Positions 1-61,058 of a stretch of DNA of 64,000 nucleotides are shown one piece after another. The DNA is from Datnioides undecimradiatus. Lineage: Eukaryota > Chordata > Actinopteri > Lobotiformes > Datnioididae. Within the stretch, counting starts at the first letter, position 1; each line of letters opens with the position of its first letter. The DNA is taken from assembly GCA_008933995.1 (NCBI GenBank), contig WARS01000013.1, forward strand, positions 16,371,806 to 16,435,805. The letters are read 5' to 3'. A program made the translations under genes and the position numbers. The notes under the pieces were generated by a model, which was not told the DNA's origin, did no database searches, and saw nothing but the letters and a program-made list of their open reading frames with translations.

Positions 1-6713
<6,713 letters not shown>

Positions 6714-31481: not shown

Positions 31482-31517
<36 letters not shown>

Positions 31518-34500
31518 GTTCCCCCCACCCCTTCTCCCTTCTTTCATCCATCCACCCACACACCAGTAACCACTGCAAACCCCAAACCATGCCATAATAG
31601 GGAAAGAGTCACACCGCAATCAGCATAACCTCTTCAGTTCATATCACACGTAAGGGAAAAGATAAAAAGCCACTCCAATCCATCACAGCACACTGCACTG
31701 CACTCTCAAGCCATCACTGGCACCTTGGAGAGAGGCTGGCTGAGGGAGGGAGGAGGGGGCGGGGGTGGGCAGACATTTTCTGTCACACCCCTCCTCGGGA
31801 CTAGTCCTGTACTGTGGGCATCTTCTGATCCTCTGCTGGTACACTGGTCAGCTGGCAGCAGAGAGCAACCATAGCCAGAGGTTAGATAGGAGGATGGCAG
31901 TGATTATTGTCAGCAATAAACATAAATAAAAAAATTCCTATTGTATCATTTAGTTCAAACAGGGATGTGATAAAGAGTGAGGGAAACAGAAACAGTGAGA
32001 TCACTGTTAAAAACTTAAGCGCTGCATGACCAAAACCCCTGACATCTAGAATGATACAAGAAAAACACCACCTATGATGTGACATTAGAAACATTTAACA
32101 CTATAAACCTGCAGAAATGCCCCAGTTTGGAGGTGAACATTTAAAACAAGAGTGTGGTAGAAAGAAGTCACAGAAGCGCACTGAGACATCTGGAGAGCGA
32201 AGGGACGGACACCAAACCGGACAACAGTGGCATGTAACGAGTGAGCATAAGCAAATGAATGTAACCCCCACCCATGGAGCGCAATCTACACTTTGCGCTC
32301 ACAGTGCCATTGAGCTGCTTCACAAAGAGGCATTCACTCTCACACACAGCTTTCAAACAGGACTATACATTAATGCTGTGGGGCATATGTGCTTTCACTC
32401 GCATCATGTATAATGAGCCTGCCTTCTCCGTGGCCTTGGCTGTGTGTTGCCATAGGCAGTTTGCCTTAATCGAGGCTTGAAATCAAGTGACCTCGTGTAG
32501 GTAAAGTGGAAGGGAAAATCATGTAAATCTCGAGAACGTGAAAGGGAAGTTAAGACGCGACGAAGCACAGCTGTCCTATAACATCTGCACGGTCGTACAT
32601 GGAGATGTTAGCTGTAGTTATAGCTGAAGTGAAAAGAGGGACTGGGGCAAGTTAAGGACAGCAGTGAGCTCCTGGGGACCACAGAGATGCCAAGTGGATT
32701 GTGGGACAATGGCAGGGGGACAAGGATGATGGCCAGAAGATCGTAGGTCAGCTGGTTTTGTGCTGACGGCCACTCGGTGTGTGTTTGACATAGTGCCACT
32801 CTGCAGACAGTGTGTGAGACACTAGACAGACATGCTCACCAAAAAACATTTGATGCCTGCAAATATTACAAATAAGGCTGTACTAACCATCACCATGAAG
32901 GCCACTTAATGAGCTAATGCGAAAAGCCTGGGCGATATCGCACCAGGCAGCTAAATATCTCTACACGATAACACAAATGACCTTCAGCGCATGACTCGCT
33001 GCAGCATGAAGTGTGAAAGCAGATGGGACAGGGTGGGGGAATTAAACAACACCTTACAATACTTGGAAGAGGACTTGATATTCCTTCCTTCCCCCCTCTT
33101 TGTTTGAGAGGACTGTGAATATTCTTTGAAAGCAGGAGGGACTAAAAAAGGTGTTTTGTTTGGCACCTGTAGAGGTGGGTTTCCTAGGGAGCACACAGCC
33201 TCATTAAGCATTAGTCCCAGAATACACCCCCCCAGTTACCCTCCCTCCTCCCCCACCTCCTTCCTCCCAGTCTCACAGAGGTGTCAGTTTTCAGAGCCTC
33301 TATCCGACACACAGCACTTTAATGGGAGAAATAAAAACCAGTGCTAACGGAATAAAAAAGGGGGATACATATGACGTGGGAAAGTGCAGGGAGGTAGACG
33401 GCGTGGAGGAGGTGATGCATGAGTGAAGATGAATCTGCAAGCACACCAACAACTCCTCCCCTCCCCATCAAAACAATGTTCCTGGCCCCAGTGACCCCCT
33501 CTGGCCCTATCAGTCCACAGCATCTGCTGACCACAGCTAGACACACACACGCACTCATACACGGCAGTAAGTCCAAACCTGCACACCACAGCTACACGCA
33601 ATGCTCCAGCACTGTTCGAAATCCCTTTTCAGACCATGTCCTCACACCATATGTTGTCAAGGGGCTTGGGGGGTGGGGGTGTGGTGGATGAGAGGCTGAA
33701 AGAAAAGCCACTTGTATGCTCTGCATCTTAGGGGAGGCCTGCGTCTGTCACCCACCATACAGAGGAACCCCCGAAGAAACGGACAGGTGCTCCATGCGCC
33801 TCTCTACGTCTCTGGGGTGGTGTTCACGGGAGATTAAGGGGGTGTAAAAGACTGTAATATGAGCCAGCACCTGTCAGGCACATGCCTCAAAGCAGCACTA
33901 CGCTCCACATTTCTAAACCCTCAGGGTTTCAGTGCCATCCATGTTCACTATGGTAGTGGGAGCACGGACATTAGAGGGACTTTCCAGTGTCCGAGGTCTT
34001 GGGACATGATGGGACATGTCCCTAGTGGACCCTGATTTCCACAAAGTTCTCAAGCACTCACGCCCTCTGACGTCAGCTTTATTATATATTAATCTACCAA
34101 TTATATTTTAGATTAACTGATTGATCATTTAAATCTTACATCTTTTACGCTTTTCTTGAAAGTACTAAAAGCAACACTATGTAACTAATGTGCCTTAAAA
34201 TAACAGCTTTAAAATCATTTTGATGCATGGCACACTGACTTTACAGGGTGAATGGCGCTTCTGCCTTTCCTACTCGCACCCCAACACAAGTTACACAACT
34301 TGGGTTGAGCAGCAATAATCTCTCCCGAGAAGCACATAATGCTTTGCGTCACACACACTCCACTAAATTATTGATTGGGGCTTGAATCAAAGTTTATGGA
34401 GAAACTGTTTTTTTGTTTTCCTTCGATGGTCATCGGCTACTCTGCTACAGCGCTCAGTGATTAGCTGCCATTAGCTAGTCAGCTCTCAGTCAGCCACACA

Positions 34501-37500
34501 GCCAGCTGGCTCTGAACTAATTTGTTGACTTGCTTGTTTTTGATAATAAGTAATGTAATCAGAACAAATGCACATGCTCAACTGCCCATAGTCACAAAAT
34601 GTGCGTATAAATGGACTGCACTCAGAAACTGTAGAGGCGCCTAATCACGAAATACAAATTATTGCATAATGTGGGTTTGAACAGTTACAGTTCATCGGTA
34701 TCTTTGCCCATTGGTTTTCTGTTAATCAACCTGATGTGTCGCCTCAACCCTGAAAACAAATGCTGCAGCTACTGGTTTCTTTCATCATAGATTATCTGTT
34801 AATAATTTCAATTATTGGATTAATGTTAAAGTCGGTACATCAGAGAAATGTAACAAATGCCCGTGATGAACGGCTTTTTTCTCAGTCCTTTATTTTAAAA
34901 CCCAAAGATATTCAGGTTACAATAAATCCTCAAATTTAAGACAATAGAAACAGCTAATGTTGACATTTTTAAATCTGACTTGTATGCAATACTACTTTAT
35001 TAAATGTTGACTTGTCATGTGTGTTGACGTGAGATTTGTGTGTGAGATATGGTGGCGAGGGATGAATTCTGAGAGTTGCGGGGGGCCCGAGGAGAGCCAT
35101 TACTGCAGTGAAATGCTCATTAGCTACTCAGCAGACCATGGCTCCTAGACGCTGTCCAGGTTGTTGCTACAACATGGCCACTTCTAGGAAGCCCTCACAG
35201 TGACAGAGTCCAGTCAGGCAGGTACACGAGTCAAGAGGCTCCTGACAGAGGCTGACAAGCGACTCACACATTCACCCCTGGAATGCTCCTCCATTACCAC
35301 AGATATGTGAACCATCTCTCAGCCCTCCCAGTCCCACAAAACTGAAATATGCTAATAGACTGCCTCTGGAGTTGCATGTGGACACGGAAACTGACATGTA
35401 CTTTCTAGAGGCCATGTTTGTCAAAGAAATAGTAGCCCAGTGGTGCATCACAGAGGGTAATACAAGAGAATACAACAAGCGCCCACTCCTGCTCACTTAC
35501 CCATACTGCCTCTGGATGAGCGCCGGGTGAATGGGCTGCACTCCGATGGATATGCCTGAAAGATAGGAGGCCGGCTGTCAGACACACACACACACACATT
35601 TGCATTTACAGAGGAGGAGCGGAGAACAATACACAGAGGGCATGGAGAGACAGAGGCAGTGCCTGTTTCAAACCTACCACAAATGGAGCAACAGTTTTAA
35701 AATGCGCAATAAACCGTGAAACATGCATGTATTTGTGAAACTGAAGGTTATTCGGCATGTTAAAATAATAATGCTGCACATGGACAGTGTGGATCGCTCA
35801 CTGAACTGAAACTGTCAACCCCATTAAATTTTGGCAAAGGGTCTCATTTATTGGCATTAGTTAGGAGGATCTCTTGGGTGCAAACAAACATGTACTTAAT
35901 TAGCAACACAACATACGGTATATCTCACCTGTCTGAATGCTGCGGGGTTTGGCACCAAGGTAGGCCAGGTTGACGTTGGCCTTCCTGCCATCGATTATGG
36001 GGTTGGGATCCTTGCAGGCTCTCTCTGCTGCTCCTCGGTCTGTCATTGTCACCTGATGACAGAGTCAGACATGTCAACAACAAGACAACAATATCTCAAG
36101 AAAAACAAACAAACAAAACCAACTGTCTTGTGTAACATTGTCATCAACCGTTAAAGCTAAATAAAACTGTTGCAAATGCATAAGAATTAGGTTGGTCTTT
36201 TATCTGCTGGGCTTGTTAGAAAATTCCCTCTACAGGCTTTCCACTGTTAAGATTCTGTTTCTCTGAAGAAGAAGAAGAAGAAGAGGGAAAACTACAAACA
36301 AAGCACAATGATAAGCTTTGAAAACTGCCCACAGCAGCAGTAGCCAGCCACAAGACTGCCACTCAGCCATGGGCAGACCTGCTGAAATATGGATCTGGGA
36401 AGAGCAACAAGGAGCTTATCCAATTAAGGACAAAATATTAAGTAGATTGGTATTAGTCCACCCCTCCTCTCTCCCTCCTGGCATTAGACGAGCCCTTCTG
36501 TTTTGATTGCCACATTCTGCCAACTAAGAGGGTTCAGTCACCTCGGTGTGTGTGTGTGTGGACTGAGCATCGAATGTAGGCCACCACGTCTTGCATTGTT
36601 TAAAGAGGACATTTGTTTTTTAAGATTTTTAAAAAACCCCCAACAAAAAACAACAAAAAAAAACAGTTTGCCTCTTCATAGCGGTAGGATCCGGAACAAA
36701 GCCCACTCCAGGGCCAGTGTTGTGAACACACAGGAAGGAGAGAGGCTGTGTTTACACTGTGAAGAGCCTTGCTGTGGGGGGTTTCTACTAATCCACCTCT
36801 GAAGTGTGTTTGGAAAAAAGGTGCGCTCTGCTTTGGGGCGCCTCCCCTCCTGCTAGCTACCTCGCCGACTAGAACGCTCAGAAAACAGAATTAGCAGGTT
36901 GCCTCATGCCGCACAAAATGTGTGTGAGAGTGTGTGTCTAGTCCCGGGCAGCACCCACATCGGCCCGAGCCTGTTTAACCTGAAACACCAGCTTCGATAC
37001 GCAGCCGTTTGATATCAACTAGACTCTCAGGACTGCTTTCCGCTGAGGTAGGGAGCTCATGTGTAAACAGTGAGGGCAATTGTCTTACAATTCTGCCTTT
37101 AGAAGTAAACACGCACACATAACAGTTTTCCAGACCTTCTTTGGCCTGACAGTACATTAGTGCTGATGTGTCTCTCCAAGGTTCTGGTAAATATTTGCAT
37201 TTCTGGTGCTGCTTCTGTTCTTTGTGTCAACGAGAGAATGACTATCTGTATCTGCATGGGACCAGATAAGTTACCTATTAGTGCAGATTTAAATTAGATA
37301 TCACAAGGGTCCTTGGGCAATATTTCATTAACCAGACTTAAAGCAACGCCAAGCAGGGATCAAGTTGTGATTAATGTGCCATAAAGCAGCACTTCTCACA
37401 CCTTAGACCAAGAGTTGACAGGCCTTTTAGTTTATGTTGTGAGAACTTCAAGGCATTTTCTTTGGCTTTGACTGGCCATAGACTCAAAAGGACAGGATCA

Positions 37501-38401
37501 AAGGAAACTTTAATGCAATTTTATAGTATACAAGAGAGGCAGTTTGTTAATGTTGGAATTCCTCGCTCAGTAGCCAAGATGTGATGTAAATTATGTGCTA
37601 CGGCTGATTGCTCAGGTCCTTGACAATGGAGGGCAGGGTGTGCAAGGTCAACCTCCTCACCGCTCCAAAATAACCATATAAAGCAAGTAAGTAGTGCTGA
37701 CTGTCACTCACACACACACACACACACACACACTTTGGAGTCATCCAAAGCCATAAGCTGGGGCTGCTCAGGGGTGAATAAAGGGGGCTTCACTCGGGGG
37801 TGGACATCAGACATATGTTGAAATATAATCTTCTTAGTTACCCATCAACTTGTGTGATCCCTCATCCTCATTAAGCTAAAATAACAGCCAGCCAGGCGAA
37901 AAACACGGAGATGCTGTGCAATTATGCTTGTAAGCTCCAGTGGAGGATTACATACTGTAGTTATGACTAACATGGGCATTTACTCGTAATTTAACATTAA
38001 CAAAACAAAAGGCAAGTGTGGTGCGGATACAAAAAACAAGCATATTTTGTGACAATAACTAGGAAATGAGCTGTATTACAGGAACTAAACAGCCTGTTAA
38101 GTGGTTTGCACTAAAAGTAGTGAATGAGAGCTACGTGCTCGTCTCGTAGCGGATATTGTGGTGCATGACTTGTGTTGTTTGTACTCACAAAGCCGTATCC
38201 CCTGGATTTACCGGTCTGCCTGTCCGTTATCACCACAGCCTCGTCAATGTCCCCAAAGGCCTCGAAGTACTTTCTGAGCGAGGCGTCGGTAGTGTGGTAC
38301 GGGAGCCCGCCGACAAAGATTTTGGTAAAAGTCGTGTCTTTCTGCAGCGGTGTGGGATGCATGACTTCCAGGGCTCCGTTCATGAACTGATGCAGAAGCA
38401 T
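29947..38401 (-). CDS. rbm38: RNA-binding protein 38 (RNPC1/SEB4 family)
   Basis: Single-RRM protein that binds AU/GU-rich 3' UTR elements and controls mRNA stability and splicing; a p53 target in mammals. Coding exons (minus): 38401-38189, 36052-35929, 35555-35501 and 30289-29947; phases agree, 244 residues. The RRM spans about residues 24-98 and shows RNP2 KIFVGGLP and RNP1 KSRGYGFV. It is followed by the family block [20 protein letters not shown], a Tyr/Ala/Pro-rich C-terminal region ([11 protein letters not shown]-like: [18 protein letters not shown]), and the invariant end QPDRMQ. The residues FGDIDEAVV and the neighbours rae1 and bmp7 (human 20q13.31) point to RBM38; RBM24, its close paralogue, has FGEIEEAVV and sits near ATXN1 in human. 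The start ATG is chosen because [18 protein letters not shown] matches the length of fish RBM38 N-termini; the Met at residue 7 or 14 is an alternative. Confidence 0.93.
31469..31515. repeat. (TC)n(AC)n compound microsatellite
   Basis: TC units run into about 15 AC units, in rbm38 intron 3. Confidence 0.92.
34164..34350 (+). repeat. Teleost interspersed repeat (AAAAGCAACACTATGTAAC type)
   Basis: Begins CTAAAAGCAACACTATGTAA, continues CCTTAAAATAACAGCTTTAA, ACAGGGTGAATGGCGCTTCT, ACACAAGTTACACAACTTGG, and ends AATAATCTCTCCCGAGAAGC. I recognise this order as a repeat dispersed through percomorph genomes. No coding content. Family name not known to me. Confidence 0.55.
34758..34985 (+). repeat. 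Third copy of the teleost repeat seen at 2250 and 9160
   Basis: Contains GATTATCTGTTAATAATTTC, TAACAAATGCCCGTGATGAA and CCCAAAGATATTCAGGTTAC, which correspond to the 5' half of the consensus I remember for this family. It covers mainly the part missing from the copy at 9160, so together they show both halves of the element. Confidence 0.55.
36053..38188 (-). other. rbm38: Intron 1 of rbm38
   Basis: Contains a (GAA)n tract near 36267-36284 and a (CA)n tract at 37707-37733. No other feature could be supported. Confidence 0.6.
37707..37733. repeat. (CA)n microsatellite
   Basis: About 12 CA units in rbm38 intron 1. Confidence 0.92.
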
Positions 38402-38599
38402 TGGTCAGCCGGTCAGACAGAGAGAGGACCAGAGGCACGCTGAAGATTCAACTGAGCGCTCAGCAATGTCCCAGCATCAGTAAAACCAAACTTAACACCT
38501 CGCTATATTACGTTGAAGTTCCTCTCCGCGTTGCCCTTCGGTAAAAGTTGCAGCAACCTGATGACAACTAAGATTCACGCCGCGGGCGCTCCCCAGGTT

Positions 38600-41351: not shown

Positions 41352-44300
41352 TCACCATTTCTTGTTCCGAGGCTTCAGCTCCTCGGCAGCGCTCCTCAGG
41401 AAGATATAGTTCTTTTTCTGGGGGTTGTAGTATTCATGGCCCTGAGGAATCCAGATCAGAGCACAATACTTAAACAAGATAAGCAAGGCGCATGCCAACA
41501 GTTTTCAACCATTGCAGCAAAATACAAACAACTGCTGACGACTTCCTACCTTTGACCAGTCATAACTGGAAGCATACGCAAAGATGTTGCCATTGTGGTT
41601 GAAGCAGCAAGCTGTGATAGGCTGGTCAAGCTGCTCGGATGTCTTCAACTTAGTGCGGGCGTCTTTGTCCCAGAAGCTGAAGCGCCCGTCTGAGCCCACA
41701 GTGGCCAGTGTGCCATGGACAGGATGGAAGGAGATGGCATTCACCTGTTTGGAGAACACGCATCAACATGTTGTATGACTAGGCTAGTTACTGCATCAGA
41801 GTGACTATTTATAATGATTAGACCTGTGAAATGACACACGAGGGCTGTCCAACAAGATGGTGTCACCCCATCTACTGTGAAAGCTGGTGGATATGATAAA
41901 TCCAACAGAAATAGGAGGAAATCATTGGGCTTTTCTTGCTATGACAAGTAAATTGGCTGCTGTGAATAAAATCTCTTAACACTTTGCATTGAAACGATTC
42001 CACAAACTGTTCTGACATTAATAAATAATATAAACATTTTGTTCAGACAGTTTTAGAAAATTTAGGACAACTTACAGCATAGATGTCCTGTGGAGTGGTT
42101 GTGTTTGTACCATTTGACCGGTGGCACTTAAAGGTGAAATTGTCTTTGGCACTGAAGGGGATCAGGGAACACATTCAAGTCATATTTTGAGGAATTTCTT
42201 TTAAAATATGTAAAAACCAAACAACAAACAAACATGCTTGAGGTTTGTTGGATTAAAGAAGAAATTATTCAGAAATCATTAAAAATCATTCATTTGAAAG
42301 TAAATGTGACTGCTGTAGACACTCACGGGTTTGGAGGGTTGATATAGTGGATGGCCACTCGACCCTCAATGCTCCCCAGTGCAAAGCCTGTGGGCTTGTT
42401 TTGCTTGTCCTTGAAAATGGCAACACAGCGATGCTGCAGGACCAGTGCAGAGAAGTCATTGAATCAAAAGTCATACATGGAAAAATCAAATATCTTTTGA
42501 TACACACACACACAAAATGCTTTTTGTGTGAAATAATAAATATCATATACACAGTGTTAAAAGACAAGAAGAGGAAAAATTCACCTGATGTTTGAGAGGA
42601 GAGTCGATTCTGCGAAACTCAGAGGGCTGGTTCTCCAGCTGGTACACTATCAGACCCCTCTCAGCTGTGGCTACCACAGCCATGGGGTACACCTACATAT
42701 CAAAACAGTCAGGGTGGCAAAAAAAAATCATCAACAAGGAAATCCACATGAATAATTATCTACTTAACAAGCACTTAAACGGGACTGTACTTACAACATC
42801 TGCACAGTAGCATCTCTCTGGCATCTGCAGAGACATCATGGGATTGGGAGAGCGGGTGTCCCAGAACTAAAAAGGAAAAACAGAAAAGCTGTGTTTGTCA
42901 GTGCTACATTATGGACTACCCTTTGTAAAATGGCAATCTCTAATTAGCTTTTTTAGGTGACCATTATGGTAACATTTGAGTGTGTACATACATTTTTTCT
43001 TAAAGTTTGTGGGTTGATCAGATTTTAACAAGAAAGCTGAATTTCTACTGTTCGCTTGCAGTGTTTTCTCATCTAATAAGTCTTCAGACTCATGGACATA
43101 TCACTCAAATTTGACTTTCTGGATCATATTTCATCGCCTTGTTTTTTTCCCATTAAACCCTAAACATTAAAAACTGAGTCTCTTTTCAAGCACTAAAAGA
43201 TGTAGGACATGTTGTACCTTCAATGTTTTGTCCCAGCTGCCAGTCATGACACAGCTGTAGTTTGGGGCTTTTATCCAGTGGATTGCCTTGATCGGACCAT
43301 CATGCTGTAAGGAGATATAAAGAGAGGTGTAAGATGATTCTGTTTAATAGTTATGACCACACAGTTGATCTGGTTGCTCTCATCCAACCTGTGCAATCTG
43401 CATTGCTTGATTGCTGTTGAGATCCCACATCTTGGCTGTTTTGTCACAGGAAGCAGTAAAAACTTTGCTCCCATCCTGGTGAATGAGAGAGGCACATCAT
43501 AAAGTATTACCTGGCCCGGTCCCCAACATCTGTTACAGGACTTAAATGACATCGTATAATGGGACCTACATCGCTCCAACATGCATCGAGCACTGGACCT
43601 GTGTGCATCTGTTGGGCTTTGGGGACCGTCTGTCCATTGTCCTGCACCTCCCAGCACCGTACCTGAGGTCAGATGATAAATTGCAGTGAGCAAACAAGAA
43701 ACTCGTGTAGTGCAGAAGTGCACGGTTCCCAACAATGCTTAAACATTGAATTCAAGGACATTTAAATTACTTTCCAGGCAAATTCCCTCAAATTCAAGGA
43801 CAAAGCACATCAGAGTTTGTGACACAGAGCTGAAATAATTACTGTTATAATAGTGAGTATTTCTACTATGAGAACAAACAGCCTTCACAGACAATAGTTA
43901 AAAAATGATTGACTTGAATGTGTGAACAGGTTTCACACACTTTGTCCAGCACTAAGTTAAAATAATCGAGAGGAATAAATTATAAAAACGGTCTTCAACT
44001 GTATTCAATTTGAATATTAAAGTTATCACTTATAAACTTGGATCCACTGCACCCATCTACTAGTGTACACCACTTAGGTAAGTTAATAAATAACTTACAT
44101 CGTTGGCCCAGGATCCTCCAATGAGGAAGTTCCCTGGCATGGTGGGAGGACTGAATGCCAGACAGCTGATGCTGTCATCTGGAGGTGAAGTCACTTCAAC
44201 ATCCTGTGGAAAATGTAAAGAACACACACAAAAAGGAATAAATTAAACAGAAAATGGATTACCATCTTTGCATGCAGTTAACTGAGTTACCTGGATTAGA

Positions 44301-45720: not shown

Positions 45721-47977
45721 TCACTTCACTCCTCACTGGAAAGTAAGTGTGTCTGCTTTTAGATTATGTATTCCGTCTATGGTTAGCCAGGAGGAAAAGA
45801 TCGGTGCCTGGTAGTAGTCCATTCATTGTACCTAGCAATACTTCTGCCTGCTTAATACAAACAGAGTGTACAACACACAGTATCATAGAAGCTAGGTAAA
45901 AATTGCTCTTTAAATAATTACTTCTAGCTTTTCTTATAGCAGTATATAAATACTGCAGTACAAGTTTTTCATTCAAACAAAACAAAACAAATTAACTAAC
46001 TAATTAACTAACTAATGTAAAACCATAGAAGTTATATTTCAATGTGTGGAAACATTAAGGAAAGCCTACTCTGTATAATGTGTTATATTGTTATATGTTA
46101 AGTGTTTGTTATTATTGTTATATTTTGTTATGTTATTTTGTAATGTATATTTGTTATTAAAACAACATTAAAAGGTAAATAAGCAAAAGAAGATAGAGGT
46201 AATATGGCCATTATTCCAATTTATAACAATTTAAAATATTTTATTGGATGACTATGACAATTATGTCTTAAATGTAAACTTTTATATAAGATAAGACATT
46301 CCTTTACTGATTAGAATGCTACAGCAGCACAAAGACATAAATAAATGGGGGGTAAAATGATAGTTTAAAAATGTGATTACTATAATCATGTATATATGTT
46401 CACAGTATAACTTATGTACATTTTTCCAATACTTGTTTTTAATCTGCAGTCAACCAGTATGACCCAGAATGATTGTAGCTTCAGTGGGAGCTGTAAGGAA
46501 TGCTCAATATTGCACTGAGTCTATATACATTAAGCAAATGAATAGAATGTGGTGCATGAATTAAATTATGAGATGCAGTACATCCCCGCGGCTGAAAAAT
46601 GTGTGACTGTGCAGCGGCTAGCCTCTACAAAGCTGCTGCTGTCACATAGTGTAAAAACCTCCTTCAGTTCTAATGAGTGGGATGATGATGTGACTATCAG
46701 CAAAAGGACCTGTTGGCATCCATCCACTCTGCCAAAGAGTCCTTGAGCAAAATATAAATTTACAGTCTTAAATTGTTAGTGTTAAAGAAGTAGGACAATT
46801 AACAGATGCTAGCAGTGGATAGGGAGGATACTTTTGTTTTGTACAGGTTTTCGGGGATGAGCCATGAGGGACCTCTGCTTGGAAAAACGTCTTAAATGAC
46901 ACCTTAGTGTTCATTGCTCATGGAAATTTGGTTGTGTGGTTTTAACTCATTTATGGATGGTCCCCTACATAGACAGAAGGAAGGTAAAAATAGAAGTTCG
47001 ACAAACAGAAAGGCACATTTGTAAAATGCCAGTTCAGTTTGTGGCTGTGACACATTAACGCCCTTTTTTTGAGTTTTATGTGCAGGTCCAGTCACAGCCG
47101 TCCCCACACATGAGTATGTATGTATGAACTGTTCTCCAGTGCTGGTTCCTTACTTTGTCATTAATTGCCCAGCCCTATCTCCATGAACTCTCTACTGGTC
47201 ACAGCGGCGCACTTTACACACGTAGTAATTTCATTTGGGCTATTGGCATGTCTCTTCATGTGCCTGTACTGCTGCTGCTGATCACTCAAACGCTTCAGCA
47301 ATTAGGGTGGGCCTGAGTTTATTGTTTGAGTTCAAAGGTGTCTGTGTTGAAGAAGGGATTAGGGGATTTTCCCTCTTTACCTTTAGACTGATCATTTGGC
47401 ATTCTCCACGTACACAGGGTTGAGGCACAGTGACCATTCTTGAAACTATCCAGATCTGTTATGTTACATGCAAATTAGCTGGGATTTTACAATAATTACT
47501 AATGGTTCTTGAGAGAAAAAGTAAAAAGAAACCAGACAAAAGATGTGCTAATCAGATGTTTTGTCCACTTTCATCAGTGGCCCAACAAACATGTCCAAAC
47601 AAAGGACGCAATGATGGGCCACTTTGGTCTGAAAGGTCCACACCCTACCTATCTTGTTACCAAGACAGAGGAGCACGCTTCATGATAGGACGTTGATCTT
47701 CTTGTCGTTGGCTCACCCCCACACGCTCCTCCAATCTTTCCAGTCTTGGTTTATCCCACTCTGAACCCCGTCGTGCCCCTCCCCTGACACAGCGCCTCAA
47801 TAAAATCCATTCCCAACTTACCATTAAGAGGAGCGCGCTGCTGTATCACACCCAGCCAGTGCGCAACTACAGGTGATGCGTAAGTGATTGAAGATACTGT
47901 GTTTTACTCACACGGCGAGTAGGGGAACTCTTTACGCATCTTTTGACTAGTTAGAGCCGCGCGTAAACTCTGGGAAC
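45721..47977. other. Interval between divergent rae1 and bmp7
   Basis: No gene found. In human, SPO11 lies between RAE1 and BMP7; no SPO11-like exon is visible here. The left part is very AT-rich (46020-46170, repeated TGTTAT). The last 150 bases, with ACGCATC and GCGCGTAA words, are presumably the bmp7 5' UTR and promoter. Confidence 0.5.
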
Positions 47978-50900
47978 ATGGTGACAAGCGCCGTGGCGAC
48001 TTTAATGATCTTCCTGTCGTGGGATTTCTCCGTGGTGTCCGCGCAGGTCGCTTACTCTAACTTCTCCGTGGACAACGAAGTGCGCTCCAGCTTCATCCAG
48101 CGGCGGCTGCGGAGCCAAGAGCGCAGGGAGATGCAGCGGGAGATCCTCTCCATCCTGGGGCTACCGCATCGTCCGCGGCCGCACGTCCACACCAAACACA
48201 ACGCTGCCCCGATGTTCATGCTGAATCTGTACAATACCATCTCCACAGACCCAGAGCCGCCCGGGTACTCTTACTACAAGGCTGCCTTACCGACCCAGTC
48301 CTCCCCCTTGGTGACCCCGCAGGACAGCCGCTTCCTAGATGACGCGGACATGGTGATGAGCTTCGTCAATCTCGGTAGGTTCATACTCTGACTTTAAAAT
48401 CACAAATTTACATCCTAATTTTAGAAACTGCGAGTAGTGACCGACTGACGGTACGATTTCATTATATTATAATACACGTAGCATATAATGTGCAAGTGAT
48501 ACTCAGTATTGAGATTGAAATTCAGCTGGACCTGCGACTCTGATATCACTAGTATCCACCAAATATTACTACAGAGACATGTTTCACTGTACAAAAAGTA
48601 ACGTGGCCCAGCATGAGTGGTAGTTTCATCACTATTGTCTGACTGAATAAACTTAAAAACCAAGAGTGCTGCAGTTAAGTGCGTGTGTGTGAGCGCCAGT
48701 GTCTCTGACATAGTGGCTTATAGGTCACTTTATTCACTTGAAATCCAGCATTATGCATTCCGAGCTGTAAATGTTATGACAGCATGCCCGTATCCGATTT
48801 CCCTGATTCCCTTCAAAGCCTCGGGGGGAGAGGGGCTTTAGCATGGCTTTGTTTCACATGACTAGGAACTGAATGAGGCATTTCTAAACCGCTTGGTAGT
48901 GAGAAATAAGTTGACCAAGCCGCAAACTGCATCTAAACACTACACATACACTGTAATAATCTGTTATTGCAGGTGTGTGCAGTGCATTCTTGGATTTATG
49001 TGTTTATGTGTCTGTTTGTATGTTTGTTTGGAGGGGTGTAAATCACAGGGGTCAAAGGTGGGAGTCGGGGTTCATTCAGACATTATTGAATCTAAAGACA
49101 AATCCGACCTTTGTTTCCCTTGGAGATCCAACAGCGGCTCTGATATCACTATGGTGAAGCAGCAGACGGCTTGGTGCCTGTGGCTCTTATCCGGATGTCC
49201 AAAACCATGTCTTCTTTATGCCCCCTCCTCCGGCCTCAGGGCTTAGGTGTCAATGTGAAGAGCTGAAGTTTGATCATCTGAAATAGTGCATCTCTAAAAA
49301 CCTTCTACACTTCCCGTCTGTTTGCTTGTTGTTGACACTGAACTAAAGCCGTTTAATTAAAAAGACATTTAGAGTTATTTTTCAATCAGCCAATAAATGT
49401 GTAGTTAATCCAAAACATTTGGAGACTGTAAAACAAAAATCTAAAATTTTATGTCCTCAGTCGTGAACTTTTAACTGATAGTCTTAAGCTAATGAGATCG
49501 TTATGGAAAACTCTTAGCAGATTTATGTGGCTTCACATCTGAAGAGTTTGATTATAAAGAGGAAGGAGGAAAAGAAACAGGGGACACAATGAGTGTGTTC
49601 AAGTTCTCTCTCAGGCGCTCCATGGCCTCTTGTACTGATGATTGGCTAGAGTTTTTAGCCGGTACTCCCTCATTGTGCTGGAGTCGACTATCTTGGTGGT
49701 CCCAGGATGATCGCTTCAAGACCAAACTGGATTATGGTATTTCCCTCCAAAGACCACAGCTTCCAGTGTGAGGGAGAACTGCTGAAGGGCTGCCCAACCC
49801 CCCTCTAACTGTGCAAGCAGGTATATCCTGCAGGTGGACAAGGCTTAGGGAGGCATTATATTGTTAATTTAGATGAATCAGCCTCATTTTCTCAGCCTCT
49901 CCTTTTAATTATTAGAAAGTATTTCAGATCTTGTCTATTCATATTTTAATATCTGCACATACTTACACTATATGACAACTTTGAACATGCAGATACATAT
50001 ACATGGCTGCATATGTTTACTGCAGGTCGGACATCAGAATCCCCAGCATGAAGCACTCATCTCATTGTCATGCAATGTGCACAAGGCAACATTTGTAATT
50101 TCAGTTATTCAGTTATGTCTCTAAAGAAATAAACTAAATGAGTGCAGAGATCTGACCTAACAGTCTTATCAGTTGTAGCTGCTCTGCTGCTCTTGACTCT
50201 GCTACTTGTCAAATCCACTGGCTTGTTTATTGCAAAAACTTTTGCCTGGAGACGTGTACACATGCATTTAGTATTGGACCACAACACACCTGCTGAGCAG
50301 CAGGAAAAAAAGTCTTAATGACCAGAAATGTCACTGGATTTCATTAGAATAGAGAGAGTGCAAAATGTTCTTTGAACAGTTGGAGGAATGATCCTGTCGC
50401 TGAGGAACAGAAGGTGTATTGTATTTCTGAGAGCAAGCAGGAAGAAATGTGTTTGTCCTGCTAAGCTGATCTGTGAGAAACATAAGGAGATCATACTAAG
50501 AATTTCTTTTGCACCGCCAGAAAATCTCATTAACTTTCTCATTATTTATACATTCATTTGCAAAATCATGCCTTTCTTTTTAGGCTGCAGTTTGAATTGG
50601 GATTGCATTCTCCTGACACGATGCTTTAAGCCTGCTTTTGTCTTTTAAATCTTGTGCAGGTCAGTTAAAAACAGTCATCAATAAGCTGAAGTGCTTTTAT
50701 TTGATTCATAGAATATCACACCAGTTTTAGCTTATTTAGCCCAATATCATAAATCACAGTTCCTTCAGGTGTTTAACAAGTTGTACAGCATGCAACACTA
50801 CATTCAATCAATACTGTGTACAATTCAGTTGAGAATAAACTTACTTTAAACATATAAAAATAGAATAAACATCAGATGGAGCAAAAGTAAATGGATCTCT

Positions 50901-53900
50901 CTCTCTGGCTGTGCGGACATGATGTTAATGTTGTATACACGGAACAGAACAGAAGTATAGACCAGCACAAATTATATAAATCATATCATTTTTGCCATTT
51001 TTTTTTAGCACAGACATCCTGAAACCACCCATGCTGCTTTGTAAAGCAAAACAAACAAAACAAACACTTACCATAAAATTGCAATAGGTTAATGATAGCT
51101 CCGTGACTGTGTGGCCCTGTGGTGTGAGGAGTAATCTGAAGTGTTGAAATGCCTCCCAGAGGGAAGTTTGCATATCTGAGGTCTGATCTCTGCAGCTAAT
51201 GGTCCCTAACGTAAACACACCAAGTCCTTACAAGCAATTATTGCTTTCATAAAAACACCCCTCGTTCCTTTCCAGCATTTAATTGCGGTCAAACAAATGA
51301 CTCGCAGGGCTCAGAATGCACAGCTCTTAACGACGAGCGGCTTGTGTGTGTTTTTGTGCCGTTACAAATGTTTTTAAAAGACTGAGTCACTGTGTGCGCG
51401 CGCTCTCATGAAAAAAAGGTTTGTTTTTGGTGTTTTTAGTGCTGCGTGTATGGTTGTCTATGCACTGAAACAATAGTGGACCAGCAGAAGGGAACTGTGG
51501 CTGATGTCATGATGATGATGATGTCACGGTGTATGCCAGCAGGCAGGATGTGTTTAAGGTGGCTAATTGCTGCTCTGGTCTGCACACCTTCACCAGAGAC
51601 CTCCACCACTCTTTCCAAGGACAAACACATTGACTAGCGCTGTAATAACAAGACACTGGAAAGCCTCAGGAAGCTTCGGGGTCTCCCTCACCACCATTCT
51701 CCTGGAAAGTCTGAGTGCTGGAGAGGCTCAGCAGACTCGGGGTGTGTTGGAAACCCCACAATATCATCGGCTCCTGCCGCTGTACTTCATCCTCTACTGT
51801 CAAGTCTGGACTCACTGAATGGTGGTGCATGGCAAAGTGATCAGGGAGGTGCGGGTGGCACAGACTCTGGTAGTTAAGTCTCATGAATTTGTGTGTGTCT
51901 CTATACTTTATGCGAGTGTGTTTATAAAAGCACACTGGCTGCTGTGGTTTTCCGGGCAGTGCCTTAACGGGCCTTTTCTTGTGGTCAGCACATGTGTGCA
52001 ATTTAAACAGGGAGCCAAACTGAGCCCCGAGTGTGTTTTTTCCCCCCACATTGGCACGTATGGCAGTCTCGACTTAGTGATGTTTAGATCAATCACTCCC
52101 TCCTCGCATGGAAGCAGGATTTTTCCTATTTCTGACACACTGCTTCCGAGATGTGGGCAGAGTGACACACATCAGAGAGTCGTTTGATTCAGCTACAGTT
52201 TTGACAGATATGCTACCGCAGACTGGTTTGCCATTTGATTATACTCTTTTTCTCACATATGCAAACTTTCCCTTTGGGGTTCAGTGGTGTGTGTGCGTCA
52301 GCTGTTGCAGACAACAATAAATCATTTAATCTGATTCACCTCTATCCTCCTCTCTCTGTGTTTCTTCTCGATAGTTGACCAGGATCAGGATCTTCTCTTA
52401 CAGCAGCAGGGACGAGAATTTCGATTTGACCTCTCACGGATTCCAGAGGGAGAAGCCGTCACAGCAGCAGAGTTTAGGGTATATAAAGATTTCATCCAGG
52501 AACGCCACGCGAATGAAACCTTCAGAATCAGTGTGTTCCAGGTCCTGCAGGAGCCTCCAAACAGGTACAGATTATTTATTTGGATTTTACTGGGTACCTG
52601 GGATTTTGATTTGTCCTGTGACATATCATATCAGGATCAGAGAGAAGTTTGACAGGAAAAGTCAGGGAATTACTAAAGTGATCACACCTAATCCTGCTGC
52701 TGACGTCTGCACCAAGTTTCATGACAGTCCATTCAATAGTTTTTATGATATTCGAGTAAAAAAAAGAAAAAGTCAAACATCTGGTTGCAAACAACCAAGG
52801 TCATTAGACTCCATTGTCTGACCACATTATATGTCTGTATAAAACGCTGTCCAATAGTTGTGGCGATATTTCAGTCTGTGGTGAGCCGACCAACATAGCT
52901 GAAAATTCAACAGCAATGTGACTTTTCAGAAACAGGGACACTTTTACTCTTGCTTATCCCCAAAACACGCAGTAGAAACGAGTTCAGCCAAGTTGCTGGG
53001 GAATAATAAAATATTATTTTTCATTAATGAGAGCAATGGTAATGAAATTCTGCTGTTTTGGGGCAAATATCATACAGACATATATTTCAAAAATTTTTCA
53101 AACAATGTTCACTGTAACTGTTTTCAATACTACATATGATTATCCTCTTAGGTCGGGGACACAGTATGAGCAGTGTGGTTGAGTTTGTACAAACAGGCTA
53201 CCGTGTGTGTTTTCTGGTGAAACCCAGTCGTTAGGCTGCTCTGTGTGCGTACTGGTTGGCCTGTTCTGGCCGTGTCTGTCGACATTTCCCCGCAGGTTAT
53301 TTCTGCTGATGTTAGTGTCAGCACGAGTGCTGTTTACACAGACATTAGTGTCAATTACAGAAACACAGCGGTTCTCTCCAGAGCAAGTTTACTCTCACAC
53401 AGTCAGAACAAGACCGTCCCCAGGAGACCTGCATTTATAACACGCAGCTCCAACCACAAATAACACTCTCAACCCTCAAGACGTCAGTTTACTCTCTTTC
53501 TTTCACACAGATGGTTATTCCTCTGTGCTTCTGTCTCACTGTCTGACTGACTGTCAGCTGCTGTGTTAGATTAACACTGTTTCCTTGTTTCAAACCCTTT
53601 CTAAAATTAGATAATTAAAAAAGACCCCGTCTTCTCCACAAATCAAAGTTGTACCACCCCCACGATAAACTGTCTGCTCCATGAACCTGTGTGAGTCTGC
53701 CTGCCAGGGAGACAGCAGGAGGAATCAGGTGCAGGCAGCAGATTTAAGTCTTTTATCGGTGACGGTGGCAACACCATTGTCATTCACAGACATACACAAA
53801 GGCCACTCCACACAGACGAGCAGGCGGCAGGGCTAAAGGCAGACGTCTGCCTGGAGGGTCTGAAACTCACTCTGTAAACAAAGCTATTGTCTGGGAAATC

Positions 53901-56388
53901 TGCCCTTAAGATGGCACCCATCAGCAACGGCGTTTTCCTCTATAGAGTTCTCCTTTGATGACGGCTGATCGTTGTGGGTGGATACATGATTCATGGGACC
54001 TACACTAAATATTTAGGTCACTTCATGAGCTGAAATCTAAAATCTTGCTTTAAATGATTTAGAGTAAGTCATTGTTATGATTTATTATTTGCAATGCATG
54101 ACTTCCTTAGCGCCTTTTCACAATTTGGAGCACTATGAATGTCTGCTGTACCAGTTTGGTTTGAAAAATTACTAATGTTGTTCTGACTTTCACATTTATT
54201 TAATCTGATTTGGTGTGTTCACAGTGCACACCGAAGTTTTTAGGACAGTGGCTAATAAACAACTTAAGAACTCTGAAGAAACCACTAAACTTCTAAACTT
54301 TATCAAGGCTTATCTTGGTTTTTATTTAGCTCCTTTGCAGGCACCAATACCTCAGCCTTACTAATCATTTTGCTTCTTTTTTGCCTTCAGTCCTCAGCAA
54401 ATAAAACATATTCTCAGTTGGACTGAGGTCAGGTGTCTGACTTGGCTTATCAACAACATTCCTCTGTTTGCCTATAAAACCTTGTTTTTGCCTTTAATGT
54501 ATTACTTTCCTGCTGCACTGGAATATGTATAAAAATGGTTATGATTTCTAGTCCGTTCCCCAAGTATGGACATAAACACCTCCAAACAGGCTGAAAATAT
54601 GCACTTTCACCTCAACGTCATTGTTTCATCTCAGATCTCAGATGGTGTTTTTATCCAAAATAACATAAAACAAGATGTCCTGTTACTTTCTAATTGTACT
54701 GTAGCTTTTCCTGGACCACACATGTAGTTTTTGCAATTTTTTTTTATTAAATACTCATTTTATGTAATTTGCATGACAGTCAAGCACTTTCTAAGCATAC
54801 AGCGCGCGTTTAGATGTTTTCTTACACTCCAGACAGCCGTTGCTTCCCATTGATTTCAGGAATGGTAATCAATTTGATGAAACTTAAAAACAAGATATGT
54901 TTAATAAATCACAGCAGACATTTCATCATTTTGTCAAGCTTATGTTTTAATTTTGTGGAAACATGTCAGCAAGTATTAACTGTTGCAAGTCTTTGATGCT
55001 GCATCCAAAGAACATTTAAAATACTTCAGTATGCAGCCAAACAAGAATATTTCCCCAGACTGCTTGACAGTTAATATTTTTAGTATTAAAATAACTGGAA
55101 TTCAATTACATGCCGTCCTCTCCTCAGTGAAGCTGAGCTCTTGCTGCTGGACAGGCGAGACGTGTGGGCTGCAGAGGAGGGCTGGTTGACCTTTGACCTG
55201 ACCGCTACCAGTAACCTCTGGCTGGTCAACCCTGAGCAGAACCTCGGCCTGCACCTGGTCCTGGAGGACAGCCACGGTCAGTCGCTGCTTTAAATCAACC
55301 AGTACGGGGAGGGATCCGTAACAGCAACAACAGCAAGAATACAGTCTTTGTCTGGAGTAATGATTCAATACTTTTTAAATCCTGTGGTTAAAAGGACCAC
55401 CACACATTTAATAAATGTGCGTAGAGGGTTCTAACAGAGTTCACGTTTTGATTGTGGTTGTTGTGGTCACATTAGGATGAACAAATGATTGTTTAGCAAA
55501 GACTTAGATGTGTGTTATTGTCATCTTGGGCCATTGTTTAAGACTCTCATTAGTTTTGTTCCCCCTTGTCTCCCTCTGTAGGTCAAAGGAGGAACCCTCA
55601 TCTGGCGGGACTGGTGACAGGCAGCGGGCCTCAGGAAAAGCAGCCGTTCATGGTTGCCTTCTTCAGAGCCAATGAGGTGCGCTTCCGCAGTGTCCGCTCT
55701 GCGCACGGCCACAAGGGGCGCCAGTCCAACCGCTCCAAACCACAGAGGACAGTTCAAGATGCGCTAAAGGCAGTAGAGGCTGCAACAGGTGCCTGAACCC
55801 CTCAAATCACACCATCACAAACTCCAGTCATGTATTTAGTTACTCTATGTACTCATACCTGCATGTTTTATTTCAGATAACCTTGGCATTTCTAAGGAGG
55901 GATGTAAAAAGCACGAGCTGTACGTCAGTTTCAGAGATTTGGGATGGCAGGTACATCATTTGATCTCATTTTCATAAAATTTTATTTCCAAATGTGACAA
56001 TGGACTAATTTCTGCCTGTGGTTTCATGCTGATCAGGACTGGATCATAGCACCAGAGGGCTATGCAGCGTATTACTGTGAGGGAGAATGCGCCTTCCCTC
56101 TCAACTCCTACATGAATGCAACCAATCACGCTATTGTGCAAACTCTGGTAAGTCCCAAACATCCCTGATCAAAAGGCAGTCTTACTACAGCCTCAGCTAC
56201 TCTCTGAGAGGATTCATTTATGTTTCTTATAAACTCAGGTGCACTTCATCAACCCGGAGACAGTGCCAAAGCCCTGCTGTGCTCCAACCCAGCTCCATGG
56301 CATCTCTGTGCTCTACTTTGATGACAGCTCTAACGTCATCCTCAAGAAGTACCGCAACATGGTGGTGAGGGCCTGTGGCTGCCACTGA
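47978..56388 (+). CDS. bmp7: Bone morphogenetic protein 7 precursor
   Basis: Secreted TGF-beta family ligand signalling through BMP type I/II receptors to SMAD1/5; roles in dorsoventral patterning, kidney, eye and skeleton. Coding exons: 47978-48374, 52375-52564, 55128-55276, 55582-55788, 55877-55950, 56037-56147 and 56239-56388; phases agree, 425 residues (human 431). A hydrophobic signal peptide covers about residues 1-22 ([16 protein letters not shown]). The prodomain includes [20 protein letters not shown] and MFMLNLYN. The likely furin site is RSVR/SAHG, matching human RSIR/STGS. The mature domain starts its cystine knot at [10 protein letters not shown], keeps all seven cysteines (CKK, YYC, GEC, KPCC, ACGC), the glycosylation site NAT in [10 protein letters not shown], and ends VRACGCH. 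The mature part is nearly identical to mammalian BMP7; BMP5/6 differ there. Teleosts have more than one bmp7 copy; which this is cannot be told. Confidence 0.96.
48375..52374 (+). other. bmp7: Intron 1 of bmp7
   Basis: Four kilobases, the largest bmp7 intron, as in other vertebrates. I see no exon, long tandem repeat or recognisable element; a short (ATG)n tract lies near 51509-51522. Confidence 0.6.
52605..52890 (+). repeat. bmp7: Degenerate LINE-type teleost repeat in bmp7 intron 2
   Basis: Contains TGCACCAAGTTTCATGACAG, CCATTCAATAGTTTTTATGA, then CCAATAGTTGTGGCGATATT, TCAGTCTGTGGTGAGCCGAC. Blocks like 'caaatttcatggcaatccatccaatagttgttgagatatttcagtctgg...gaccgac' are, from memory, the usual tail units of L2-type repeats in fish. 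The two partial units suggest tandem tail repeats. Strongly diverged and non-coding. Confidence 0.5.
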
Positions 56389-58520: not shown

Positions 58521-60923
58521 CTAAATGCAGTTTGTCCCTGGACCTCTCAACTCAGGGGCTGAATAGTGTCTCCGTCGGACCACCTCCGCCTCCTTCTTTT
58601 TTCCCCTTTCTTGCCATTCTGACCCCGGGGGAACCTGAGGTTTTGGTTGTAGGGCCTTTAGGGGCTCACAGCCTCCTTCTGACCTCCTGGGGAAGGTTTT
58701 TGGCTCCGTGGTGGCTGATAATTGAAGCTGGGGAGCCGAGACAGGGGTGAGAGCCAGGCAGACATCCCCAACACAGAGCCGGCGGCACTGCAGGCCGCAG
58801 AGACGGGCAGTCCTCTGAGGGCTGCAGGAGGACCAGCCCCGCCCACGCACAAAGAAGGGATACTCCACATAGACATCCACCAACTCCTGGAGGAGGATGT
58901 CACACATATACAGCAAGGTTAGACACACGCTGGTCCACTAGGTGGCGGTATTGTTGTACTTGTGCTAAATTAATGTCACATAGCAGAGAGACAATTTCAG
59001 ACTTGCCGGAAATCATCTAAAACAAATACTCCACTATAAGTATATGCAGTATAAGTAAAGTGTTTTTGTTTTGTTTTGTTTTGTTTGCCAGATGCCAAAC
59101 ATTACAATACCGCCCCAAAAAAGATCCTCTGTGAATTTTTAGCAAACATAAGTGATTAGTACATTGGTTGAGGATTATTTTCTTTTGCGGATTAAACCAA
59201 ATTTTCTGTGGTAGCATTTTATGGCACTGACCCATATTGATTGTAATGATGGTATTTTAATCTCTTCTGGACAATACTCGAGCTCTATGGTACAGAGGAA
59301 TAAGATATATTGGGTTTTGACTTCTATTGGTCTTTTCATCGTTTTTATTTTCCACAAATAAAGACAAAAAACACCATTATCAGCTTTATCCTTTGAAACT
59401 ATAGAGCGCATCTCTTACCAATGAATGAAAGTATGTCACATTCCGGCCAAATGGGTTTACACAACGCTGATAAAGCTGATCATAGCCAGATAAATCTCTT
59501 TGTATTTCGCAGTATGCAGAGTGTTTAGTGTGATATTCTTGTGATTGTGCTCTGGCAGAGATAAGCTTTACATCAACCAAGAATTATATAGCACCTTTCT
59601 AGTATACCAAACACTCAAAAGATTACTCTCACAACCAGAAGGGGCAGACAAAAGTCCAAGTTTAAAACTCAACTAAAGGCAATTTGCCTTGAGAGTAATT
59701 AAAAGGCTGAACTATGTTTTTAAATCCCATTCAATCAGTCATACCAGTGATAGAAACATTAAATTTGAAGGCAGTAAGTAATGCCATATTTGCTATCACT
59801 TTGTCAATGGCCTGCTGTGAATGGCAAACACCACACCATCACCAAAGTGATTTTTCTTCACCTGTGACTGCTGGTCGTGCAGCAGGATGAGGAGACGTGA
59901 GATGGAGGGGGAGGAGGAGGCTGGAGGGTAGATGCTCTGCACCGTGCAACAGCTCAGACGCAGGTCTGGGCAGGCCAGGGATCCCAGCAGGAAGTCCTCT
60001 GTCTGCAGGTGCTCCACCTTCCTCAGCCGACCATCTCTGAGCTCAATCAGAGAGCCTGCCTCAAAGTGGGGGAGCAACCAGGGGAAATGGTTGGGAGATG
60101 AAGAGGAGGAAGAAGCCTGCTCAGACGAGGCAAGAGCAGAAGATCTTGGTGCATCCTCCTTCACAGAGGTGTATGTGTTACATGAGTTATCTTCAGAGGA
60201 CACTCTAATGAAGGAATGTGCAGAGACCGGATGTTTGACAACCTTTGTTGATTTGTGCAGTGTGTCATGTTGTTGTGTAAGGTCCCCATGTGGGGAGTGA
60301 GGTAGGCATGTGTTTAACGATGGAGGACTTTTTTCAATCATGGGAAAGTACTCAAGTTTTCTGTCTCTTCTCCTCACATATGGTCCTTTATTCCTCCCAT
60401 TGCTCTGCCTCTCAGTGTTAAAACTTTTGTCCTTTAATGTCTTGAGCTGCTCCCAGCCATATGCTCCTTCAACTCTTTGGTAACCCTCATTGACCAGGGA
60501 GACAGGGCTGAATCTGGAGGGGTGGTGTGGATGGCCTAGGTGGAGCGCAGGTGTGCCAGACAAGTGGCTGTGGTGCTGATAGTGGTGAGAAAGGTCCCAT
60601 CCAAGGTGCAGGGGGTTGAACTCTCTCCACTCTGCCCAGCCGTGGTGCTCCCTGAAGGCAGAGAGGACCTGAGGTTTGGACCTGGCAGATGTGTGAATCT
60701 GCCTCCAGGGCTGGTACAGCGCAGGAACCCGTTTTGGTACTGGCTGGAAAGGTCCTGTGTGTTTTGACCTAAACTCACTATGGCTCTTGTAAGGGTAAGG
60801 CGCTTTGAACGTCACCGTATCACACTGCTGCTGTGCCAGGGGTGAGCTTGGTCTTTGGTCCCTTTTTTTGAGGGGGAGGTTGTCCCTATCTGGGACTAGA
60901 GCTGGTTTCGGTGTCAAGCTCAT
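58521..60923 (-). CDS. Ataxin-1 family protein with AXH domain (third paralogue or atxn1-like)
   Basis: Two coding exons on the minus strand: 60923-59862 and 58886-58521, joined CAG/gtgaag to CTCCAG/GAG in phase 0; 475 residues. The AXH domain spans about residues 283-405, from PHFEAGSLIELRDGRLRKVE through TEDFLLGSL to VYVEYPFFVRGRGWSSCSP and VGDVCLALTP; the intron splits it where ATXN1's last intron does. Near the N-terminus NLPLKKRDQRP matches the CLPPKKRE/D start shared by ATXN1 and ATXN1L. Near the C-terminus RRRHYSAPEL (Ser 463) matches ATXN1 RKRRWSAPES around the phospho-Ser that binds 14-3-3, with KKK/RRR as a nuclear signal. There is no poly-Gln tract; instead a His-rich part (residues 110-135) and a Ser run. 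It is shorter than ATXN1 (about 815) and ATXN1L (689), and lacks their IPQEVK...EGRSN end. ATXN1-type proteins bind Capicua through AXH-adjacent contacts and repress transcription. ATG 60923 is the first in-frame ATG after a stop. Confidence 0.85.
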
Positions 60924-61058
60924 TGGCTCACACTGGCTGTCACTCACATTGGCACTGCATGTCCTCCTGCAGAAGCTGAAGAGGTGTTGTAATTATGTGG
61001 CACAGACTCCAGTCTCTTGGCAAGCGTTGCAGATAGTTAGATCCAAGGTCGTCACGAT
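60924..61058 (-). other. 5' leader part of the ataxin-1-like coding exon, with two upstream ORFs
   Basis: A clear acceptor (CTACTTTTCAG) ends at 61059, so the exon runs 61058-59862 and the gene has at least one upstream noncoding exon. Ahead of the main ATG are ATGCAGTGCCAATGTGAGTGA (a six-codon ORF beginning at 60960) and, inside it in another frame, ATGTGA at 60949 (a start followed at once by stop). Long, uORF-bearing leaders are known for ATXN1, so translational damping is plausible. Confidence 0.6.

Follow-up and report, generated by a model that had tools for sequence, protein, structure and literature searches.

The known members of the ataxin-1 family, ATXN1 and ATXN1L, are treated as a vertebrate family, represented in zebrafish by the three genes atxn1a, atxn1b and atxn1l, and their proteins have three regions in common, one of which is the C-terminus (passages of PMC8583371). 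The same passages place JARID2, DTNBP1 and MYLIP beside ATXN1, while Ataxin-1 has been counted among the 14-3-3-binding 2R-ohnologues (PMC3411107). From a functional perspective, the RKRRWS motif of ATXN1 matches the ligand motif (ULM) bound by the UHM domain of U2AF65 and is modulated by S776 phosphorylation and 14-3-3 binding; it diverges in Boat/ATXN1L (PMC2791216). No description of a third, or of a bmp7-side, ataxin-1 gene is found in the titles and abstract openings of the papers listed, and the parts available of PMC8583371, PMC10676324, PMC9957872, PMC3411107, PMC4377849, PMC11405765, PMC3796545, PMC2791216, PMC9928969 and PMC5871936 mention no third gene. The string atxn1c occurs in PMC12223882 and PMC2323314, and ATXN1-like in others, and genome databases may well carry genes of the type described here under an ataxin-1-like name. 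The locus presented below, from the fish Datnioides undecimradiatus, holds a real gene and makes a good case for a third ancient ataxin-1 paralogue, present in duplicate in this fish.

An intact ataxin-1-family gene and its relatives in the genome

The window, that is the whole stretch of 64,000 nucleotides that was analysed, carries on its minus strand (60923..59862 joined to 58886..58521) an intact ataxin-1-family gene with two predicted coding exons. The coding sequence of 1428 nt, stop included, has no internal stops in a frame and splice check and specifies 475 amino acids. Its features are the following:

59862..60923 (-): coding exon 1, 354 codons with ATG start and donor CAG/GTGAAG (open frame and splice check)
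58521..58886 (-): coding exon 2, 121 codons plus stop, with acceptor CTCCTCCAG/GAG (splice check)
58887..59861 (-): intron within the AXH domain, 975 bp, GT-AG, phase 0, predicted from sequence
59862..60065 (-): AXH domain, first part, residues 287-354 (Pfam match and site mapping)
58746..58886 (-): AXH domain, second part, residues 355-401 (Pfam match)
60861..60878 (-): N-terminal LPLKKR motif (frame reading)
58551..58577 (-): C-terminal RRRHYSAPE motif (frame reading)

The predicted protein, which begins with MSLTPKPALVPDRDNLPLKKRD and ends with VRRRHYSAPELRGPGTNCI, has AXH as its sole Pfam domain (residues 287-401, profile positions 1-115 of 116, E=5e-29), and its best PDB sequence match is the AXH of human ataxin-1 (E=4e-30), followed by HBP1 (E=6e-6). 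A preliminary description of this DNA, whose span of 58521-61058 includes 135 bases 5' of the first in-frame ATG, had read here a two-exon frame with an AXH domain as well as N-terminal LPxKKR and C-terminal RRxxYSAPE motifs. The intron, the open frame and the Pfam match bear out the former, and the motifs are indeed present, as NLPLKKRD and RRRHYSAPE. The other four ataxin-1 family members of the genome read LPPKKR, one change away from the LPLKKR of the window copy.

A six-frame search for AXH in the 581-Mb genome gave 13 matches that fall into seven loci, five of ataxin-1 type and two of HBP1 type. In what follows the contig of the window is labelled C315, and C307, C480, C496, C479, C334, C470 and similar labels denote other contigs of the same genome. 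The HBP1-like loci lie on C334 and C470. The genes on C480 and C307 are of ATXN1 type and possess the conserved C-terminal tail (LPKPSFIPHEVKxSIEG; LPKPSFIPHEVK-type), which occurs in a RPSFIPQEVKLSIEG form on C479, where AXH lies in a single frame without an intron, the gene being atxn1l (C479:5817569-5819065). The fifth gene, on C496 (C496:8287867-8290199), is a sister copy of the window gene, with 691 amino acids versus 475. The position of the AXH intron is identical in the four split genes (window, C496, C480 and C307), and both the window gene and its sister lack the tail of ATXN1 and ATXN1L. Since this tail, a region shared by the known proteins, is absent from both new copies, the window gene can be filed on its sequence as a putative divergent third branch of the family, neither ATXN1 nor ATXN1L.

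Compared with ATXN1 (zebrafish atxn1a/atxn1b), the window gene is alike in the place of its AXH intron, in the LPxKKR and SAP phosphosite motifs and in having RBM24/38 and dysbindin family genes as neighbours. It differs in its AXH identity to human ATXN1, 47% (51% for the C496 copy) against 86% for C480, in its much shorter product, in the missing LPKPSFIPHEVK tail, which the C496 copy also lacks, and in the loss of the ULM Trp. With ATXN1L (BOAT; zebrafish atxn1l), a known partner of Capicua (Cic), it shares AXH and the LPPKKR-type motif at the N-terminus, whereas the C479 atxn1l lies on another contig, has no AXH intron, possesses the tail and reaches only 43% AXH identity to the window copy. 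With HBP1, which combines AXH and an HMG box, only the AXH fold is in common: the identity is 30-33% across a partial AXH and HBP1 falls clearly outside in the tree. In fact, PDB matches, Pfam and tree all place the AXH of the window gene closer to ATXN1/ATXN1L than to HBP1. The two new copies are 60% identical to each other in this domain.

Two further features of the family were observed. The C496 copy has a long RD/RE repeat (ERSQRDRDRDQERDRDK...) directly N-terminal of AXH, with no counterpart in the other four ataxin-1-type frames; repeats of this type are common in splicing-related proteins. The C479 atxn1l has a Gln-rich stretch C-terminal of AXH, including a run of eight Gln; the polyglutamine of ATXN1 has been reported in human and chimpanzee only (passages of PMC8583371).

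The phylogenetic analysis of AXH covered human ATXN1, human HBP1 and the seven fish sequences. In the best tree the window and C496 copies form a pair, with uneven support (SH-aLRT 99.7, UFBoot 67); human ATXN1, C480 and C307 make up the clade next to it (88.9/83), and atxn1l stands outside with weak support (76.9/49). Eight named trees were compared under four models. Both tested trees that split the window copy from C496 are rejected (AU <0.001 under the four models), and placements of the pair as sister to ATXN1 (best), basal to ATXN1 plus ATXN1L, or sister to ATXN1L (Tree C, AU 0.11-0.21) are indistinguishable. Tree D, in which the pair is sister to C480 plus C307 with human ATXN1 outside, obtains AU values of 0.193, 0.251, 0.217 and 0.198, and trees that nest the pair with just one of C307 and C480 are mildly disfavoured (AU 0.02-0.095), without rejection by the SH test (0.42-0.49). 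The branch of the pair is long, that of the window copy longer than that of C496, so the placement of the pair is unsure. The AXH tree thus supports the pair without dating its split, and AXH is too short a domain for such dating, so that the tree was set aside as sole proof of an ancient origin. As for the tree that the preliminary description had suggested as a check, the best tree does set the two copies apart from the ATXN1-type genes and atxn1l; an origin restricted to ray-finned fish is not rejected by it (AU 0.19-0.25).

Gene order around the locus and the origin of the paralogue

The genes that accompany the ataxin-1 gene in the window, in the order rbm38 (-), rae1 (-), bmp7 (+), ataxin-1 gene (-), are:

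29950..38404 (-): rbm38, frames at about 38.3, 36.0 and 30.0-30.3 kb (Pfam RRM, exon reading, comparison with human RBM38)
43170..43343 (-): rae1 exon frame (PDB match to mRNA export factor, E=3e-18)
47951..56385 (+): bmp7, first to last matched frame (TGF-beta propeptide; best PDB match of the last exon is BMP7)

The bmp7 and ataxin-1 genes stand tail-to-tail, 2.1 kb apart. When the frames of the window were compared with 200 kb of C496, matches were found only to the ataxin-1 gene and to bmp7, the latter about 10 kb from the sister gene and likewise tail-to-tail. Because C496 has both genes in the same setting, the bmp7-ataxin-1 pair appears to have been copied as one unit, for which the teleost genome duplication would be the simplest event.

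Across the genome, the search with the rbm38 exon gave four strong matches (E about 1e-27 or better, against 2e-10 for the one that follows), one on each contig that carries a split ataxin-1 gene, at about 20 kb from it on C315, 0.70 Mb on C496, 0.30 Mb on C307 (where one stop is crossed before the start Met) and 0.55 Mb on C480. The residues after the RRM read KPRSIQTG on C315 and KPRSSQTS on C496, like the KPRSLQTG of human RBM38, and KPRVMQPG on C480 and KPRVIQPG on C307, as in RBM24. In the best RRM tree human RBM38 joins C315 and C496, with two rival placements less than 0.1 log units away; a tree separating C315 from C496 is disfavoured (AU 0.03). Moreover, the CAP_C domain of the CAP1/CAP2 family was found at two places in the genome, both on C480, one of them 30 kb from RBM24; in human, too, CAP2 is a near neighbour of RBM24.

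A genome search for the dysbindin family returned five loci. One lies about 19 kb from the window gene, past the end of the window, another 34 kb from the sister gene on C496 and a third 95 kb from ATXN1 on C480; the remaining two are unlinked, on C488 and at 38.7 Mb of C307, 12.8 Mb from the ATXN1 of that contig, so that this ATXN1 is without a dysbindin match for 12 Mb around. In-frame stops occur in the C315, C480 and C488 matches and are taken to be introns read through; the comparison covered matched exons. On C315 and C496 the dysbindin gene stands head-to-head with the ataxin-1 gene, and with exon ends set by eye the exons of these two dysbindins share 62 of 82 residues with each other and 50 of 81, each, with that of C480. 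We take the C480 gene to be DTNBP1 and the other two to be DBNDD2-like, human DBNDD2 lying on 20q13.

As a result, rbm38-rae1-bmp7-atxn-dysbindin lie within about 50 kb on C315, dysbindin-atxn-bmp7 within about 68 kb on C496, and CAP2-RBM24-ATXN1-DTNBP1 within 0.68 Mb on C480, as on human 6p22. C496 is rearranged, with rbm38 located beyond the dysbindin gene as seen from the ataxin-1 gene; in contrast, the split ataxin-1 gene of C480 and of C315 lies between the dysbindin and RBM24/38 genes, the orientation of the window gene being flipped relative to C480. The window gene thus sits among paralogues of genes that accompany ATXN1, from the RBM24/38 and dysbindin families. Since RBM24/38 genes occur on all four contigs with split genes and dysbindin genes near three ataxin-1 genes, it is probable that dysbindin, ATXN1 and RBM were duplicated together in one block. 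If the five dysbindin loci were placed at random, the probability that one of them came to lie 50 kb or less from a given place would be about 0.0009 by a rough count.

The preliminary description had instead drawn the block as RBM-ATXN1-BMP. Its BMP leg was seen on the bmp7 side only: among the best five matches of the bmp7 exon, only the two bmp7 genes adjoin an ataxin-1 gene, C389 and C337 carry the third and fourth, and the fifth, at C480:10.49 Mb, is 6.6 Mb from the ATXN1 of its contig. No linkage of bmp6 to ATXN1 being found among these five matches, BMP was dropped as a block marker, and the dysbindin family is the better third one. Endothelin and TFAP2 genes were likewise set aside: their members on C315, C307 and C480 are separated from the ataxin-1 genes by megabases, further ones are on C31, C160 and C469 (endothelin) and on C389 (TFAP2), and C480 has a second cluster with both families.

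Other features of these contigs can be recorded here. On the contig that bears ATXN1-RBM24-CAP2, a second cluster at C480:8.8-10.5 Mb holds TFAP2, a CAP gene, endothelin, a BMP (67% to bmp7) and one gene with the Cic motif, a set that seems to resemble the human 1p34 group. Upstream of rbm38, the window has exons of 6-phosphofructo-2-kinase/bisphosphatase type (1585-4366) and of Ada3 (tada3; 15078-15506). As the human relatives of both are on 3p, the region joins 3p-like and 20q13-like genes; in a similar way, a troponin-C-like frame was recognised by eye on C496 at 8357804.

A conserved grouping of BMP7 with SPO11, RAE1 and RBM38 is reported for chicken, soft-shell turtle and human in a passage that names no ataxin gene (PMC9928969); this fits a loss in amniotes, or may reflect a gene that was never there.

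Gene order within the D. undecimradiatus genome is the strongest evidence for an ancient origin. We propose that the genome duplications of early vertebrates copied a block of dysbindin, ATXN1 and RBM24/38 and so gave rise to a third gene, here named atxn1c. The split would predate the divergence of fish and tetrapods, because humans keep both DTNBP1 and DBNDD2 and both RBM24 and RBM38, on 6p22 and 20q13. The teleost duplication would then have doubled each side, so that atxn1c was kept as two copies, one beside each bmp7, and the 20q13 copy would have been lost in mammals. No ataxin-1 gene is known on human 20q13, and atxn1c is not known from mammals. We infer the early-vertebrate (1R/2R) date, the loss in mammals, and the nuclear location and Cic binding of the product. 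The whole reading, an intact third ancient paralogue born by block duplication in early vertebrates, present in two teleost copies, absent from mammals and probably serving as a Cic co-repressor subunit, has in our estimate a probability of about 0.8. The earlier proposal of an ancient third paralogue on a 20q13-like side is well backed by the order of RBM24/38, dysbindin and CAP2 and agrees with the AXH grouping; it falls short in its BMP leg and in dating by tree.

Several other histories were weighed. A recent duplicate was discarded, as bmp7 was duplicated together with the ataxin-1 gene and AXH identity within the pair is just 60%, and a single-gene duplicate beside bmp7 was discarded as the main reading, given the dysbindin and RBM24/38 paralogues that flank the window gene. 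A more specific form of the latter, in which atxn1 was duplicated in ray-finned fish after the tetrapod split and before the teleost genome duplication and landed by chance beside bmp7, is unlikely: Tree D is not rejected under any of the four models and the long branch leaves the placement unsure, but the move of a single gene predicts no flanking by paralogues of both neighbours of ATXN1, the rough random-place estimate for dysbindin is very low, and nesting with C307 or C480 alone fares worse in the AU test. Even less credit is due to a co-duplication with atxn1l rather than atxn1. Tree C escapes rejection; nevertheless, the AXH intron is common to ATXN1 and absent from the C479 atxn1l, AXH identity is 45-52% to the three ATXN1 sequences versus 43% to atxn1l, the C496 copy has an ATXN1-type RKRRWSAP, and the neighbours match those of ATXN1 (the surroundings of C479 being compared for the searched families only).

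A different doubt concerns the present state of the gene, which could be an ancient paralogue under relaxed constraint, on its way to loss, with an intact frame and little function. The shorter product (475 vs 691 aa), the longer branch and the loss of the ULM Trp and of the equivalents of S602 and A584 speak for such a relic; yet frame, splice sites and AXH core are intact after a duplication with dS above 1, and dN/dS of the pair is about 0.33 over 119 AXH codons, with dS near saturation. We regard it as improbable, if slightly less so than the chance landing in ray-finned fish. Over these codons dN and dS are 0.39 and 1.17 for window versus C496 and 0.13 and 2.0 for C480 versus C307, values that indicate purifying selection on both pairs, looser in the bmp7-side pair, and are rough, dS being near saturation. 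At face value its lower dS would mark the bmp7-side pair as the younger one, a reading for which the sample is too small to be trusted.

Capicua contacts and divergence of the two copies

Most likely, the atxn1c product would work in the nucleus as a subunit of a co-repressor; its AXH would bind the N-terminal WHSLVPFL peptide of Cic, competing or acting with ATXN1-type and Atxn1l proteins. Two genes of the genome carry the Cic motif EPRSVPVFPWHSLVPFL, in identical form (L041, C307:22140471; L044, C480:10524103). The pattern search gave four matches, two of them without the flanking EPRSVPVFP, and none in the reversed control. The C307 and C480 genes, named Cic from this motif, are probably a teleost duplication pair.

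From the contacts that PMC3796545 gives for the AXH of ataxin-1 with the Cic peptide, 16 positions were taken, all carrying the expected letters in the human numbering used. The window and C496 copies are each identical to human at 12 of the 16, compared with 16 in C480 and C307, 13 in C479 and 5, with gaps, in the HBP1 of C334; at non-contact columns the two copies are identical to human at 44/103 and 49/103, respectively. This conservation of contacts also follows from the fold, several being core residues. Both copies keep the seven residues of the Leu40 pocket (I581, V591, L594, F599, F652, W658 and L672), and in both, position 580 is L and position 641 is E. Of the Trp37 groove, the C496 copy keeps A584 and S602, which are replaced by Arg and Gly, respectively, in the window copy, where the Val equivalent to V591 is kept; positions 609 and 643 of the C496 copy are F and L. 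A double mutation of V591 and S602 abolishes Cic binding in mice (PMC9957872). Judged from these residues, a Capicua role of the third gene is likely; the C496 copy would rather bind Cic than not, and for the window copy binding is possible, with the balance tipped slightly against it.

The C-terminal motif is RKRRWSAPD in the C496 copy, with the RKRRWS UHM ligand, and RRRHYSAPE in the window copy, where the Ser still has its Arg at -3 and Pro at +2 and the ULM Trp has become Tyr. Binding to UHM domains requires the Trp, and 14-3-3 proteins recognise RxxSxP. Since Arg and Pro remain and the Trp is gone, the window copy may retain a putative 14-3-3 control and would have lost the binding of splicing factors. 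With two changes in the Trp37 groove and Tyr in place of the ULM Trp, the window copy has probably diverged from its sister; common to both remain the AXH intron at the ATXN1 position and the missing ATXN1/ATXN1L tail.

These differences allow a tentative view, which we hold to be rather less probable than its opposite, that jawed vertebrates began with three ataxin-1 genes and that the teleost copies split their duties. The C496 copy would keep A584 and S602, the splicing-factor motif and the long RD/RE repeat, and the window copy, with its altered groove and motif, would possibly be a modified or dominant-negative partner of Cic. Mammals, including people with SCA1, would then be without a third regulator. 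If the third paralogue is real, loss-of-function work in fish may miss redundancy that it provides, and its two copies would allow naturally varied forms of the groove that binds Cic, and of the splicing-factor motif, to be compared. Moreover, since Cic isoforms are reported to prefer either Ataxin-1 or Ataxin-1-like (a 2026 paper, PMC13390769), whether Cic has a third partner becomes a direct question.
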